Shown one piece after another: positions 10,009 to 16,034 of a stretch of DNA of 64,000 nt. The number at the start of each line of letters is the position of its first letter. Within the stretch, counting starts at the first letter, position 1. The position numbers and the translations under genes are program-made. A model generated the notes under the pieces. That model was not told where the DNA came from. It saw only the letters and a list, made by a program, of their open reading frames with translations, and made no database searches. The DNA is from Acidimicrobiia bacterium (GTDB lineage Bacteria; Actinomycetota; Acidimicrobiia; Spongiisociales; Spongiisociaceae): the NCBI GenBank assembly GCA_021296345.1, contig JAGWAN010000002.1:1-64000 (forward strand), read 5' to 3'.

Positions 10009-11433
10009 TTATGAGCCTTCCGAGGCAGCCTCGGGCGGGGGTTCTCCCGGGTCTGGCAATCCCTGTTCTACGGCCCACCGCCTCACGTCTCCGAAGGCCT
10101 CGGCCCGGTCGTAGGGACCCTGGTCGATCCGCTTCTCCAGCAGCATCTTCAGCACGGCTCCGACGGTCGGGCCGGGGCCGACGCCCAGGTATTCCATGAC
10201 ATCGAACCCGTCGATGGGTGGTCGGAGGGCATCCAGTTCCTCCCTGGCGCGGAGGGCCTCGATCCGCTCCTCCAGCTCGTCGATCTGCCGCTGGATCCGG
10301 CGGGCCCGGCGGTCGCTACGGGTGGTGACATCGCACCGCGCCAGCCGGTTGAGCCGGGGCAGCAGCTCGCCCGCGTCCCGCACGTAGCGGCGTACCGCCG
10401 AATCGGTCCAACCCATCTTGAAGGTGTGGGCCCGCATGTGGAGGAACACCAGCTCGGCCACGTCGTTGACCGTCCCGTTGGGGTAGCGCAGCTTTCGCAG
10501 GCGGCGGCGAGTCATCCGGGCGCCCACCACCTCATGGTGGTGGAAGGTCACCTTGGAACCCTCGAACCGGCGGGTGGCAGGCTTCCCGACATCGTGAAAC
10601 AGGGCGGCTAGACGCAGGACCAGGTCGGATTCCGTCTTGGCCATCACCGCCAGCGAGTGGGCCAACACGTCCTTGTGACGGTGGTCCGGATCCTCGGTCA
10701 TGGCCAGCGCGGGCACCTCGGGAACGAATTCGGCCGCCAGCCCGGACTCGACCATCGCCGACATGGCGGGCGCCGCACCACCGGCCACCACCAACTTGGA
10801 GAACTCGTCCCGGATCCGCTCCGCGCTGATCGTCCGGAGGCGCTCCCGCAGGCGTGCCACCGCCTCGAGTTCCGGCCGGTCGGGATAGAAGCCCAACTGC
10901 GCCATGAACCGGAACAGCCGGACCATCCGGAGAGGATCGTCCGAGAACGACACGTCGGGGCCGCTGGGTGTCCGCAGGGTCCGGGTGGCCAGGTCGGCCA
11001 CACCGTTGAACGGATCCACCAGAAACGGGGTATCGCGACCGAGCCGCAATGCGATGGCGTTGACAGTGAAATCCCGGCGCCCCAGGTCGGCCTCGATCGA
11101 ATCGCCGAAAGCGACCTCCGGGCGACGGCTATCCGGCCGGTAGGTCTCGGCGCGGAAGGTGGTTATCTCGCACCGCTCCCCATCCCGAAGCAGGCCGATC
11201 GTTCCGAACCGTTCGCCCATGGTGTAGAGCTGATCGGCCCAGTCCCTGAGTAGTGGCTTCATCTGGTCGGGCCGGGCGCTGGTGGCGAAGTCGAGATCGG
11301 CCGACTCCCGACCCAGCAAGGCATCGCGAACCGAGCCGCCCACCAGGTGGATCTCGTAGCCGGCCGCCGCGAAGAGATCGGCTAACTCCCGGCTGGTGCC
11401 GCTGTTGAGCCAGTTCAGGCGCTCGGGAACCAT
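10009..11433 (-). CDS. cca: CCA-adding tRNA nucleotidyltransferase
   Basis: 474 residues. The polymerase-beta-type catalytic core is at the N-terminus: LVGGSVRDALLGRESADLDFATSA contains the G-S/G motif and the metal-binding DxD. The neck domain follows, then an HD phosphohydrolase-like domain (LAALFHDVGKPATRR) near residue 285, the arrangement of actinobacterial class II enzymes. It adds or repairs the 3' CCA, needed here because the tRNAs in the window do not encode it. It is the second gene after the deacetylase, 7 bp apart. Mycobacterium has this gene at the equivalent place (annotated pcnA). Confidence 0.93.
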   Translation of the reverse strand: MVPERLNWLNSGTSRELADLFAAAGYEIHLVGGSVRDALLGRESADLDFATSARPDQMKPLLRDWADQLYTMGERFGTIGLLRDGERCEITTFRAETYRPDSRRPEVAFGDSIEADLGRRDFTVNAIALRLGRDTPFLVDPFNGVADLATRTLRTPSGPDVSFSDDPLRMVRLFRFMAQLGFYPDRPELEAVARLRERLRTISAERIRDEFSKLVVAGGAAPAMSAMVESGLAAEFVPEVPALAMTEDPDHRHKDVLAHSLAVMAKTESDLVLRLAALFHDVGKPATRRFEGSKVTFHHHEVVGARMTRRRLRKLRYPNGTVNDVAELVFLHMRAHTFKMGWTDSAVRRYVRDAGELLPRLNRLARCDVTTRSDRRARRIQRQIDELEERIEALRAREELDALRPPIDGFDVMEYLGVGPGPTVGAVLKMLLEKRIDQGPYDRAEAFGDVRRWAVEQGLPDPGEPPPEAASEGS

Positions 11434-11440
11434 GCTCGGA

Positions 11441-12457
11441 TCAGCCGAGGTCCCACACCTCGGCAGCTTCCGCCGTCACAGCATCCAGGGTTGCGAAGGC
11501 AAGCTCGGAGGAGCGGAAGCGGTACTCCTCATCGGGAACGACCGCGCCGGCCGCTCCCGCCAGGGTGGCGGTGACCGAAGCCGTGATGGCGTCCAGGTCG
11601 TACCCGCCCTCCAGGAAGCAGATGGTACGGCCCGGAGGGGTCAAATCGACCAGGGCGCGGGACATGAAGGCATAGTCGGACGGGAGCAGGCGCAGGCTCG
11701 CCAGGGGATCATCCGCGTGGGCGTCATAGCCTGCGCTGACCAGCAGCCAGTCCGGACCGAACTGCGAGATCACAGGCAGGATCAACTCATCGAAGGCCCG
11801 GCGGTAGAGGTCGCCGGCGGTTCCGGGCGGAAGGGGCAGGTCCAGGATGGTGGCCGCGCCCCGGTGGGCCGTCATATCGACTATGCGTCCGGTGCCCGGG
11901 TAGAAGGGATACTGGTGGGTCGAGATGTACAAGACCTTCTCTTCATGCTCGAACATCTCCTCGGTGCCGTTGCCGTGATGGACGTCCCAGTCCATGATCG
12001 CCACCTTGCAGCCCCGCTCCGCCAGCATGGCCGCCGTGACCGCTGCGCTGTTGAACAGGCAGAACCCCATCGCCGTGGAGGAGCGGGCGTGGTGGCCCGG
12101 CGGCCGGACCGTCAGAAACGCCAGGTCAGCGGTCCCGTCCTCCAGGCGGCGGACCGCCAGAGGACCCGCTCCTGCAGCCCGGACGGCGGCGTCCCACGAG
12201 GCCGGCACGGCGGCCGTGTCCGGATCCAGCCGAGCGCCTCCCGAGGCACAAACCTGCTGGATGTAATCGACATAGCCGGGGGCATGGACCAGCTCCAGCA
12301 ACCTCCGGTCAACCTCCGGGGCCAACTCCTCAACCAACTCCACCGGAGCGGCCCGCACCCCCTGGAGGGCCGCGTCCAGGCGGGCCGGGCGCTCGGGATG
12401 GCCCCGCCCGGCATCGTGCTGCTCGAAAACCGGATGGGAAACGGCCAGCACTCTCAT
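11441..12457 (-). CDS. Histone-deacetylase-family (AcuC-like) amidohydrolase
   Basis: Class II deacetylase of 338 residues. The zinc and catalytic motifs are intact: HPERPARL near the N-terminus, the FCLFNSAAVTA strand, IMDWDVHHGNGTEEMF with Asp and His zinc ligands, and LVSAGYDAHADDPL with the third Asp. Bacterial members deacetylate proteins such as acetyl-CoA synthetase, or polyamine- and acetoin-related small molecules. The frame opens 18 codons earlier, but the ATG giving MRVLAVSHPVFEQHDAG matches the family start. It is cotranscribed with cca. Three 35-bp repeats lie just before it. The native substrate is unknown. Confidence 0.9.
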   Translation of the reverse strand: MRVLAVSHPVFEQHDAGRGHPERPARLDAALQGVRAAPVELVEELAPEVDRRLLELVHAPGYVDYIQQVCASGGARLDPDTAAVPASWDAAVRAAGAGPLAVRRLEDGTADLAFLTVRPPGHHARSSTAMGFCLFNSAAVTAAMLAERGCKVAIMDWDVHHGNGTEEMFEHEEKVLYISTHQYPFYPGTGRIVDMTAHRGAATILDLPLPPGTAGDLYRRAFDELILPVISQFGPDWLLVSAGYDAHADDPLASLRLLPSDYAFMSRALVDLTPPGRTICFLEGGYDLDAITASVTATLAGAAGAVVPDEEYRFRSSELAFATLDAVTAEAAEVWDLG

Positions 12458-12482
12458 ATGCAGCCAGGCTACCCCGGTCGTC

Positions 12483-12587
12483 GCGAACCTCAGGATCAGA
12501 ACACCACACACGGCGCCACGAACCTCAGGATCAGAACGTCATACACGGCTCCACGAACCTGAGGATCAGGACACCGTATATGACGCC
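12483..12587. repeat. Three tandem 35-bp repeats
   Basis: Units at 12483, 12518 and 12553 share the core ACGAACCTCAGGATCAG followed by a variable CACAC/CATAC/CGTAT stretch. They abut without spacers, so this is not a CRISPR. They lie between the small-RNA-like element and the deacetylase start on the minus strand, hence in the deacetylase leader or promoter region. Confidence 0.85.
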
Positions 12588-12624
12588 CTCTGCCTCAAGA
12601 ACCTCCAGACGGCCCAAAGTCGGG

Positions 12625-12804
12625 AAAAACCGGTGCTCTGCACCGGGCCCCGCCCCCGCCACCACCCATCCTGCTGGAGCGTGGTCGGCCATGCCCGGCT
12701 GGCTGCCGGGTAATCGGCGGTTCTCTCCATGAAGCCTTGTTTGTTCCCCTGGGCCGGCCGTCCGATCGGTCTCGCCTCATCGGCCGGTGTGGGTGCTTGG
12801 CAAT
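12625..12804 (-). ncRNA. Candidate small RNA, copy A of an origin-flanking pair
   Basis: About 180 nt that match the plus-strand sequence at 33971-34155 nearly end to end, including ATTGCCAAGCACC, CCGGCCGATGAGG, GAGACCGATCGG and GGGCATGGCCGACCACGCTC. The 3' end is CCGGTGC-AGA-GCACCGG followed by TTTTT, a textbook intrinsic terminator. An internal hairpin CCCGGC...GCCGGG is kept in both copies while its loop differs. Reading frames are not conserved between copies. No Rfam family is recognised. The 259 bp from here to the pseudokinase gene (12836-13094) hold nothing else I can support. Confidence 0.65.
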
Positions 12805-12810
12805 AGGCAA

Positions 12811-12835
12811 CGTATATCAAACGTGTGACACGTTC
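12811..12835 (-). promoter_or_regulatory. Predicted promoter of small RNA copy A
   Basis: On the minus strand a TATACG -10 (12811-12816) lies 15 bp after TTGAAC. The same GAAC-TGTCA-...-TATACG arrangement with identical spacing precedes copy B. Confidence 0.5.
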
Positions 12836-13094
12836 AAGCCCTTTCCGCAAGAACGCGAAAAGGTCTTCTGGGTTCCTGGTGCGGCTCGGTGCGCGTTGGC
12901 CGGATCCCGGCGGGGCGCCGTCCTCGGCCCTTCCCGAACGGCCCGGTTGGTAGATTCCAGGTGGAAGGCCCGCAGCTCGAGAGGCGGCAGGGAATGAACG
13001 GCGCACCTCCCCGAAGAACGGCGTCGGGCGCTTCGCCTCGCCCGCATCGGTGCGCTGCCGTCCCCCCTCCCGTCCCCGGCCCTGATCGCTAGCC

Positions 13095-14426
13095 ATGCCC
13101 CCACCGATACCGGACCGCTACCGGCTGGAGGTGCGCCTCGGCCGGGACGAGGACATCGAGGAGTGGTTCGCCACCGATCTGGAGCTGGACCGCCCGGTCC
13201 TGATTCGAGTGATCGGTCCCGAGGCGACCAGGGCGCGGGGCCGAGCGTTCCTGGCTGCGGTCCAGCGCGCTTCTCGCGCCAGCCATACGCACGTGGCCGC
13301 GGTTTTCGCAGCCGACACGGTGCCCGGGTCCACCTATGCGGTCACCGAGTGGGTAGGCGGCACCACGCTGGCCGACCAATTAGGGGCCGGTGGCGGGCCA
13401 CCCATCGCCGAGTTGCTCAGCAACGCCGGCGGTCTCGCCGAGGGCCTTGCCGTGTTCCACACCGCGGGCGTGACCCACGGAGCCATCGACGCGGGGGCGG
13501 TCCTGTATTCGCGAGGGCAACCGGCCAAGCTGGGCGGCTTCGGTCGGGTACCACGGGGCTCCTCCCCCGAGGACGACGTGCGGGCGCTGGCCGGCACACT
13601 GGAGACCGCGCTCACCGGCATGCCTGCCGGTGCCATGGCTCCCTCGGAACTCATCCACTCGTTGTCCCCGAGCGTTGACGACATCCTTAGCTCCGCCCTC
13701 GCCAACCAGATCGATGCCCGGCAACTGGCCGACCGGCTGCGGGCAGTTCCCTATTCACCTCCCGTCTCGGTCCCGTTCCGGTTGTCCTGGCGCCGGCTGC
13801 TGCCGGCTGGCCTGCTCGCCCTGGCCGCTGGGGTGCTCGTGTGGGCCGGTAGCGCGGTGGACACCAGCCCGACTCCCCCTTTGGAGGTCTCTTCCCTCCC
13901 CCTGCCCACCCTGGCTTCCAGGCCGGATACCGATCCCGGGCCTACCCTGGCATCGTCGTCAGCGGACGACCCGACCGACCAAGCGGTGCTCGAAAACGAG
14001 CCGGTGGTCCTGCTACGGGTGCTCGACTTCGACCCCCTGGGGGACGGCCAGGAGCATCCCAACCGGCTGGGGTTACTGACCGACGGGGATCCCACCACCG
14101 AGTGGCGCACCGAAGGCTATTTCGACCCGTTACCCCTGCTGAAGGAGGGCGTGGGTCTTGCCTTCGAGGTGAGCGGATCGCCGGCACTCCTCGAGCTGAC
14201 GGGCCTGTCCGAGGGTACGGCCTTCCGTCTCATGTGGGCAGAGTCGCTTCTCGGAGTCGATGACGCGGGCTGGGAGGTCATCGCCGAGCAACAAGCCGGC
14301 GCCGCAACCCTCCGCCTACCGTTACCCGAACTTCGCAACGGGGTCTGGCTGCTCTGGCTGACCGACTTGCCACCCGAGGAAGCCGGCTACCGCGCCCGGC
14401 TGGCCGAAGTGAGCTTCAGCAGTTGA
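13095..14426 (+). CDS. MviN-type pseudokinase with extracellular beta domain, lacking the MurJ transporter part
   Basis: 443 residues. Residues 1-215 have a protein-kinase fold but no catalytic residues: the Gly loop is not recognisable, the Lys strand reads VLIRVI, the HRD region is HGAIDAG and DFG is GGFGR. One membrane helix follows (LLPAGLLALAAGVLVWAG, ~237-254), then a Pro/Ser-rich linker and an outer beta domain with a discoidin-like DGDPTTEWRTEGYF. This equals the C-terminal half of mycobacterial MviN (Rv3910), where it is fused to the lipid II flippase MurJ and recruits FhaA. No MurJ helices are encoded upstream. The sigma-factor gene overlaps its stop. Confidence 0.8.
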   Translation: MPPPIPDRYRLEVRLGRDEDIEEWFATDLELDRPVLIRVIGPEATRARGRAFLAAVQRASRASHTHVAAVFAADTVPGSTYAVTEWVGGTTLADQLGAGGGPPIAELLSNAGGLAEGLAVFHTAGVTHGAIDAGAVLYSRGQPAKLGGFGRVPRGSSPEDDVRALAGTLETALTGMPAGAMAPSELIHSLSPSVDDILSSALANQIDARQLADRLRAVPYSPPVSVPFRLSWRRLLPAGLLALAAGVLVWAGSAVDTSPTPPLEVSSLPLPTLASRPDTDPGPTLASSSADDPTDQAVLENEPVVLLRVLDFDPLGDGQEHPNRLGLLTDGDPTTEWRTEGYFDPLPLLKEGVGLAFEVSGSPALLELTGLSEGTAFRLMWAESLLGVDDAGWEVIAEQQAGAATLRLPLPELRNGVWLLWLTDLPPEEAGYRARLAEVSFSS

Positions 14427-15016
14427 GCAGGACCGACCGCTCCGCCCCCCGCGACGACTTCGTCCTCGTCCAGCGGTACCTGGCAGGAGACGGCAGGGCG
14501 TTCGATCAGCTGATGGCCGCTCACGAGGGTCGGGTGTTCGCCGTCTGCCTTCGAATCCTGCGGGACCGGGAGGAGGCTCTGGACGCAACCCAGGAGACCT
14601 TCATCACCGTGCTCCGCAAGGCCGGCTCGTTCGAAGGAAGATCGGCCTTCTCCACCTGGCTGTACCGGGTGGCCGTCAACACCTGTTACACGATGCTCCG
14701 GAAGAAGGGGCGGCGCCCGACCACGCCGCTGCCGGGAGCCCACGACCCGCCGGACCTGTCGGCAACCGATCGCATCCGTGCGGCCGAGCTCCGACCCATT
14801 CTCGAAGAGGCTCTGGCGAAGCTGCCGGAAGAGTTCGGGCCGGCAGTGCTGCTCAGCGATCTGGAGGGCCTACCCCTGCGGAGGGTGGCGGAGATCCTCG
14901 AGGTCCCGCTCGGTACCGTGAAATCCCGCGTGTTCCGGGGCCGGAAGCTGCTGGCCGAACATCTCGGGAACCTTATGGCCCCGTCCGGGTATCCCAAAGA
15001 GGACAAACATGAGTGA
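14423..15016 (+). CDS. ECF sigma factor, SigM-like
   Basis: 197 residues with sigma-70 region 2 (FDQLMAAHEGRVFAVCLRIL through AFSTWLYRVAVNTCYTMLRK) and region 4 (LEEALAKLPEEFGPAVLLSDLEGLPLRRVAEILEVPLGTVKSRVFRGR). Its place between the MviN-type gene and trxB is that of mycobacterial sigM, which answers oxidative and envelope stress. The TTG start overlaps the upstream stop as TTGA, so translation is probably coupled. The next gene, a predicted membrane anti-sigma factor, overlaps its 3' end by 8 bp. Confidence 0.9.
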   Translation: MSRTDRSAPRDDFVLVQRYLAGDGRAFDQLMAAHEGRVFAVCLRILRDREEALDATQETFITVLRKAGSFEGRSAFSTWLYRVAVNTCYTMLRKKGRRPTTPLPGAHDPPDLSATDRIRAAELRPILEEALAKLPEEFGPAVLLSDLEGLPLRRVAEILEVPLGTVKSRVFRGRKLLAEHLGNLMAPSGYPKEDKHE

Positions 15017-16034
15017 CGAGCGAATCCCCATCGACCAGTTGATGGACCTGGTGGAGGGCAGCCTTCCCGACGACGAGGCTGCCCGGCTCGAAGCCGCCCT
15101 CGATGACGACGCCCGCCGGGAACTGGCCGTACAGGCCGCCGTTACGACCGTACTGGGACAGCTCCCCGGTCCGGAACTCTCCGACGATGAGCGCCGGCGG
15201 CTACGGGCGGCCGTCCGAGCCGAGCTCCGCGTGGAGGAGGCGCCCCCCGAGCCGTCCGGGGGACGGCAGGAGCGGCGGTCCTGGCTGGCACGCGTGCTTC
15301 CGTCCGCAGCGGCAGCCGCGTCGGTGGTGGCCATGATCGCGGTCGCCATCAACCTGGTCGGAGGCGCCGATTCCGTACAGGAGGCCTCCCTGACGGATGC
15401 CGGCGCGGCCGCTACCGAACAGGCAGCCGACGTTGTGGAGGTGACTGCCGCGCCGGCGCCGGCTCCGGAGGATCCGGAGGACGCCGCAGACCCGGTCGCC
15501 CTGGCAGAGGAGGCGCCCGTGGACCGGGCTGCCGACGAGGCGATGGCAGGCGCGGGGATGGAAGCTGACGCCACCGCTGAACTCGCCGAAAGCGCGATGG
15601 CCGAAGCCGCTATGGCGGACGAGGCCTTGGCGGAAGCTCAGGAACCGGAGGCGATGGCCGCGGAGGAAGCCCAAGGTCTCGGGCCCGGCTACGTCGCGTT
15701 CGAGGTTGTGACCGACCGGCCCGAGGAGACCCGCCAGATGCTGGAGATGATGGAGGAGCTGGCCGTGATCAGCGAGATGGCGCCCGTGCCGGTCACAGAA
15801 CTCGCCGAACGGGCCGTGGAGGCGGAACTGGTCTGCTGGCAAGGAGCGGCGGAGCTGGCAGGGGCGAGCGGGGTGATCATCTGGATGGCCCCCGGGCTCG
15901 TGGACGGCGTAGCGGGCGAGGCTTACCTGGTCGCGCCGGGCCCGGACCACCAGCCGGGAACCGGAGTTCTGGCTCTGTTCGTCTACCCGGACTGCCGAGC
16001 CGTGGCACTCCGGGCGGTCACGAACCAGCCCTAG
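15009..16034 (+). CDS. Predicted membrane anti-sigma factor
   Basis: 341 residues. The N-terminal ~70 residues (ERIPIDQLMDLVEGSLPDDEAARLEAALDDD) resemble an anti-sigma domain but lack the HxxxCxxC zinc motif. A single helix (VLPSAAAAASVVAMIAVAINLV, ~98-119) anchors it, followed by a long Ala/Glu-rich outer linker and a ~100-residue C-terminal domain with VAFEVVTDRPEETRQML. By position and overlap it should hold the SigM-like factor inactive at the membrane, as RsmA does in mycobacteria. The sequence itself is divergent, so the assignment is mostly contextual. Confidence 0.72.
   Translation: MSDERIPIDQLMDLVEGSLPDDEAARLEAALDDDARRELAVQAAVTTVLGQLPGPELSDDERRRLRAAVRAELRVEEAPPEPSGGRQERRSWLARVLPSAAAAASVVAMIAVAINLVGGADSVQEASLTDAGAAATEQAADVVEVTAAPAPAPEDPEDAADPVALAEEAPVDRAADEAMAGAGMEADATAELAESAMAEAAMADEALAEAQEPEAMAAEEAQGLGPGYVAFEVVTDRPEETRQMLEMMEELAVISEMAPVPVTELAERAVEAELVCWQGAAELAGASGVIIWMAPGLVDGVAGEAYLVAPGPDHQPGTGVLALFVYPDCRAVALRAVTNQP

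Follow-up and report, generated by a model that had tools for sequence, protein, structure and literature searches.

The 64,000-nucleotide stretch of DNA analysed in this study (hereafter the window), derived from an Acidimicrobiia genome (G000), encodes a free-standing protein related to the C-terminal half of MviN from mycobacteria and composed of a pseudokinase domain, a transmembrane (TM) helix and an extracytoplasmic beta domain. The stand-alone state of this module is confirmed as real, widespread and conserved, and the regulator has apparently survived its first flippase partner. The explanation which we favour, and consider reasonably probable, is that the module is a stand-alone scaffold of the ActPs3 type, that the ancestral murJ was lost from the adjacent slot and a MurJ of other descent took over, and that the regulator was kept and acts in trans.

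The module gene and its locus

The locus is composed of the following features:
10009..11433, minus strand: pcnA/CCA-adding-type gene flanking the locus (neighbour conserved across the order, the class and the phylum)
11441..12511, minus strand: histone-deacetylase-like (HDAC) gene flanking the slot (neighbour conserved across the order and the class)
12512..13094, no strand: intergenic slot, the position of murJ in other orders of the class, with no murJ remnant (synteny; HMM scan and genus alignment)
13095..14426, plus strand: stand-alone MviN-type module, pseudokinase - TM - CBM32/discoidin-like domain (ORF, profile-profile match, structure)
13095..13757, plus strand: cytoplasmic pseudokinase domain, aa 1-221 (motif counts over the 21 rows of alignment A1; Foldseek)
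13788..13853, plus strand: single transmembrane helix, aa 232-253 (helix in the model; hydrophobic sequence stretch)
14007..14420, plus strand: extracytoplasmic beta domain, aa 305-442, with a predicted CBM32/discoidin-like fold (domain model, Foldseek, VIA-align)
14423..15016, plus strand: sigM-like ECF sigma factor gene (NCBIfam SigM is the best match, below its cut-off)
15009..16034, plus strand: rsmA-like anti-sigma factor gene (NCBIfam antisigma, 5.7e-6, below its cut-off)

The names of the two flanking genes are presumed from their sequences.

The module ORF encodes 443 aa and begins with its own ATG at position 13095, as proposed in an earlier note on this DNA. The stop-to-stop frame around it comprises only 446 aa, so that an in-frame upstream extension or fusion is impossible; the frame is the same in close relatives, which also rules out the loss of a fusion through a frame error. 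The interval given in that note (12836-14426) needs a small correction, as its first 259 bp belong to the intergenic slot. An HMM scan of eight such slots found no MurJ remnant at 12512-13094 (the best listed fragment scored -0.5 bits, and none was listed from the window). When aligned within the genus, the slot contains many indels and no long frame common to the members, and it was therefore read as non-coding. The start of the sigM-like gene overlaps the module stop (TTGA), as is the case in most loci of the order that were read, and sigM and the rsmA-like gene share 8 bases. Upstream of the locus (12484-12610) there are short, imperfect repeats of the type CCTCAGGATCAGAACACC, whose copy number varies among members of the genus.

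Domain architecture

The Pfam kinase match to the module protein is weak (8.2e-6). An AlphaFold model, built with 21 relatives (mean pLDDT 82.9), assigns aa 1-221 to a kinase fold, aa 232-253 to a single helix and aa 305-442 to a beta domain. In a Foldseek search with this model, ranks 2-10 were occupied by the kinase-homology domain of Rv3910 (MviN), behind PknE, and VIA-align gave Z 23.6 against PknB and Z 22.1 against 3otv. The VIA-align list for the whole model was filled by kinase-domain chains, and the beta domain was therefore modelled separately (35 rows; pLDDT 94.7). Its best Foldseek matches were CBM32 modules (best E 7.8e-6; 63 chains at E <=0.001, many of them CBM32), and VIA-align gave Z values of up to 13.8 (13.5 against 4a42). 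The domain is predicted to form a galactose-binding-like beta sandwich of the CBM32/discoidin fold. The family match, the 446-aa frame and the absence of MurJ upstream bear out the original identification of the MviN pseudokinase-TM-beta region without MurJ.

The module resembles the C-terminal half of MviN/Rv3910 of Mycobacterium tuberculosis (Mtb; PDB 3OTV, 3OUK, 3OUN, 3UQC; ActPs3) in its order of pseudokinase, TM helix and carbohydrate-binding-type domain, in its short activation segment and hinge Trp, and in the position of its gene directly 5' of sigM. Unlike in Mtb, (i) it is a separate protein, with no MurJ domain in the same polypeptide, (ii) MurJ is encoded elsewhere and is apparently of another lineage, and (iii) the tail lacks Thr (T947 in the Mtb pathway) and FhaA was not detected in this genome. 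The kinase fold is shared with PknB-type PASTA kinases (VIA-align Z given above), but the module has neither catalytic motifs nor PASTA repeats, and the genome has a PknB-like PASTA kinase of its own, identified by reading as a 708-aa ORF (locus L067) with a kinase domain and repeated C-terminal domains.

The dead kinase and its active-looking relatives

In the window protein, the beta3 Lys is replaced by Arg38, HRD by HGA and DFG by GFG, the activation loop is deleted, and the hinge carries Trp86. The beta3 Lys (replaced by Arg), the Asp of HRD, the Asn that follows and the Asp of DFG are all missing from the 21 rows of an alignment of module relatives (A1). The activation-loop segment comprises 14 residues in the window protein, 13 in fused MviN and 19 in L211, compared with 40-43 in 16 of 18 murJ-linked rows. 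The hinge Trp is present in 21/21 A1 rows and in the fused L216, and absent from all other murJ-linked rows; in our reading of the alignment, it is the probable equivalent of W789 of Mtb, while the site matching Mtb F724 appears to be Glu in the window protein. The relevant part of PMC12599244 describes the deletion of the activation loop in ActPs3/MviN pseudokinases, and the occupation of the ATP pocket of the Mtb domain by the bulky aromatics F724 and W789.

A1 and the alignment of murJ-linked kinases (A2) match in hhalign with E 1.8e-58 across 414 columns, and therefore represent one family. The murJ-linked kinases of other Actinomycetota have in common with the module this whole-length profile match, the position before sigM, the TM helix and an FDPxGD/CBM32-like domain. 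Unlike the module, they adjoin murJ, and in 14 of 18 aligned cases Lys, HRD, Asn and DFG are all intact (the remaining ones, including fused MviN, do not retain the full set); judging by these motifs, the 14 look catalytically active. HRD and DFG are also retained in 6/6 class modules located apart from MurJ, one of which was read only in part. Since most murJ-linked homologues are motif-intact, the pseudokinase of MviN would seem to be a degenerate offshoot of a receptor-kinase family whose members are mostly active. When losses of the active kinase were counted on the module tree, at least two changes were required, with weak deep forks, and independent loss is unsupported; a single origin of the dead kinase is conceivable, because the short loop and the hinge Trp are common to fused MviN. 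We tentatively propose that the MviN pseudokinase may be the degenerate end of a phylum-wide murJ - kinase - sigM family of mostly active-looking receptor kinases, that the family was freed in this order by flippase replacement, and that its founding job may have been wall sensing and not attachment to MurJ, the flippase link being one use.

Gene order, distribution and selection

Most loci of the class outside the order have the arrangement pcnA - HDAC - murJ - kinase - sigM - trxB - trxA - parB - parA, and the gene order of other phylum loci is much the same. The loci of the order itself (pcnA-HDAC-kinase-sigM-trxB-trxA-parB-parA) represent the class array minus murJ. The loci read outside the order show that separate, adjoining murJ and kinase genes are the rule in the phylum, and that fusion is a mycobacterial-type exception; MurJ and the module form a single 1360-aa frame in one phylum genome (G234). 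The earlier note had implied fusion as the normal state, which these loci and PMC10166564 contradict. The split, adjoining form has indeed been published: the legend to S6 Fig of PMC10166564 places a 'protein kinase family protein' (gene 6) often 3' of mviN genes without the extension, and gene 6 presumably corresponds to the murJ-linked loci described here.

The order was surveyed in 99 genomes, G000 included, with E 1e-35 or better taken as a good module match. The module was found in 80 genomes, one had a contig-edge fragment and 18 lacked it, among them all 14 genomes of family f8; outside f8 it is kept in 80 of 85 genomes, one of the other five being the fragment. MurJ (at E 1e-30) was found in 86/99 genomes, and both genes in 69. 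In four of these (G011, G030, G051 and G085) MurJ and the module are located on one contig, approximately 107 to 658 kb apart, and in the remainder on different contigs. A fused or nearby MurJ, which the earlier note had named in its fused form as the sign of a local deletion, was sought in these relatives and found for 0/80 modules (the largest frame, 680 aa, is too short for a fusion). The split form is widespread in the order and does not reflect a local deletion in a single strain. Of the 119 genomes sampled from the class, 19 outside the order contained the C-terminal module, which lay on the same strand as MurJ and within a few kb of it in 12 and apart from it in six; in one, MurJ was not found. 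All 26 sampled genomes of family f12 lacked the module.

The module is under purifying selection, with a mean dN/dS of 0.18 for the kinase domain, 0.15 for the TM and beta domain and 0.55 for the linker (trxB, 0.125). One of the 80 order-level modules (G080) contains an internal TGA.

MurJ is encoded elsewhere

The search for a separate murJ, suggested together with the original observation, was successful: the genome contains one convincing MurJ, encoded on another contig (G000:C18) and truncated by the contig end, whose neighbours match those of G004. The absence of MurJ from the genome is thereby ruled out, and lipid II flipping has not been lost, since there is a separate murJ gene. Two further matches to PF03023 (C58 and C56) were rejected as additional MurJs, being weaker and covering only part of the model; they resemble MATE-type transporters. 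The murJ neighbours are conserved in the order, with a PHP-domain gene directly upstream, followed by aspartate-kinase-like and semialdehyde-dehydrogenase-like genes (L072 11095-14957, L071 6034-9548), which is a cell-wall precursor context.

In a quick tree of 100 rows, the MurJ proteins of the order were placed apart from both class copies. In a second quick tree (73 rows, five of them non-actinobacterial outgroup rows), they were united in a single clade (100) on a stem of 1.85, and this clade fell outside an Actinomycetota clade of 44 rows (99) containing all class rows used, i.e. linked, relocated and 'B' copies. Such placement does not by itself indicate a foreign phylum, since 11 of the 29 rows from elsewhere in the phylum fall outside the 44-row clade too. 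Constraining order and class MurJ together was rejected in the 73-row set (dlnL 78, AU p 5.7e-5); the same constraint in the earlier 100-row set (four rows ignored) did not reach rejection, at 46 log units and p 0.067. As a control, a tree was built from up to five genes adjoining the module at these loci; in it, the order formed one clade near the class with a stem of 0.20, its exact position being unsettled. Four MurJs of the order gave medians of 98-132 bits against five non-actinobacterial MurJs and 75-91 bits against class-linked ones. The site aligned to D25 of Thermosipho africanus MurJ is polar in 30/30 readable rows of the order (31 in total), E/D in 5/5 outgroup rows and hydrophobic in 16/17 class-linked rows. 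Since the MurJ of the order stands off class MurJ while the genes adjacent to the module diverge ordinarily, MurJ was probably replaced and not moved; replacement is the better reading of these sequences, though not proven. The earlier note had offered two possibilities, that murJ had moved or that the regulator was kept after losing its partner. The second comes nearer, if it is amended to say that a substitute probably took the partner's place.

No donor of this MurJ was found; tblastn of a plasmid collection gave distant matches only (best 106 bits). Outside the order, the MurJ closest to it (219-240 bits) is L239 from G112, a member of family f12 (genomes of ~1.1 Mb), represented by one long-branched row. 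Many class genomes contain a second, divergent MurJ paralogue ('B'), which is never beside the module in the loci read (L181-L189, L191, L193, L195, L197, L199); the trees do not support the MurJ of the order being this copy. A very divergent MurJ-like protein is common to G077:C84 (L224) and G111:C35 (L182), which belong to different orders, and forms a long joint branch; L224 lacks MurJ arginines 18 and 24.

Candidate partners of the module

FhaA_N was detected neither in this genome nor in any of its close relatives (0/9 in G000-G008), where a diverged, sub-threshold copy is possible. In the class sample, 86 of the 119 genomes contain it, including most of the order beyond this genus; it is present in G009, G010, G013 and G014, and not in G011 and G012. 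The search for an FhaA homologue, also proposed earlier, thus gave a negative result for this genome and a positive one for most of the order beyond the genus. In this genome, the expected fhaA position is occupied by serA, upstream of fhaB, a PP2C-like phosphatase gene (pstP), rodA, a PBP gene (pbpA) and pknB, all of these names being presumed from sequence. The tail of the window protein (aa 215-233) contains no Thr, which is present there in 13 of the 21 A1 rows.

In class loci with murJ elsewhere, the module stays by sigM in 6/6 cases (L177, L276-L280). In G009, no match to sigM or rsmA was found in the ~360 bp between the module and trxB (L074 9643-10005), and the module is kept. The module can thus persist in genomes that lack a murJ beside it, a detectable FhaA or an adjoining sigM.

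Alternative explanations

That the class murJ relocated and then changed fast, without any replacement, is in our opinion unlikely. Relocation does occur in the class, since in G099, G125 and G161 the class MurJ is encoded at a distance from a module that still lies by sigM, and in these genomes and G103 the displaced MurJ groups with class or phylum MurJ. The 100-row test, which leaves common descent unrejected, agrees with such a history. Moreover, the long stem of the order's MurJ makes long-branch effects possible, and the module's own tree also sets the order off the class rows (stem 0.97), so that rapid evolution of the two genes has to be taken seriously as an alternative. Relocation is nevertheless opposed by the rejection of a common grouping once outgroups were included, by the D25-aligned site, at which the order resembles the outgroups and not class-linked MurJ, and by the relocated class MurJs, which display no such divergence. 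The true partner might instead be SigM/RsmA, the module acting as a sensor in the membrane whose signal goes to the sigma factor and not to the flippase. This is possible, if rather doubtful: the start-stop overlap and the proximity to sigM in the six class loci with murJ elsewhere argue for it, whereas the G009 locus and the mycobacterial data, which in the relevant parts of PMC12599244 and PMC10166564 link the pseudokinase domain to PknB, FhaA and MurJ, argue against it.

That the module still controls MurJ in trans in just the mycobacterial manner, via phospho-Thr and FhaA, is very unlikely, even though PknB-, PstP-, RodA- and PbpA-like genes are present and FhaA_N occurs in most of the order beyond this genus; the failure to detect FhaA_N in G000-G008, the Thr-free tail of the window protein and the patchy occurrence of Thr there among the A1 rows, and the apparently different lineage of MurJ speak against it. 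We give hardly any credence to a decaying leftover or an assembly artefact. The single internal TGA and the absence of the module from f8 would fit decay, but the low dN/dS of the folded domains, the retention of the module in nearly all genomes outside f8 and of the start-stop overlap in most loci read do not, and the neighbours that the MurJ contig shares with G004 argue against an artefact.

Under replacement of the flippase, the reading that we prefer, the module would be a membrane-anchored scaffold of the MviN (ActPs3-type) pseudokinase family. Its CBM32-like domain would read a cell-wall sugar outside the membrane, and its dead kinase domain may dock a partner inside. In the ancestral arrangement, the gene would have had murJ on one side and sigM on the other. 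No later than the base of the order, the class murJ would have disappeared from the slot, its task of flipping lipid II passing to a MurJ with another ancestry and another locus. The regulator would have stayed at the old locus, where it would now act in trans on the PknB/elongation machinery.

Within the collection of papers searched, we found none naming both 'Acidimicrobiia' and 'MurJ'. In mycobacteria, how, and in which direction, the MviN pseudokinase and FhaA affect peptidoglycan synthesis is disputed, according to part of PMC11898655. An order that keeps the pseudokinase after an apparent replacement of MurJ, with one genus in which FhaA was not detected, offers a case in which these functions have been separated by evolution, and the mostly active-looking murJ-linked receptor kinases provide a testable ancestor for the dead domain. 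The regulator that is welded to an essential cell-wall flippase in tuberculosis bacteria stands alone in this little-studied order.
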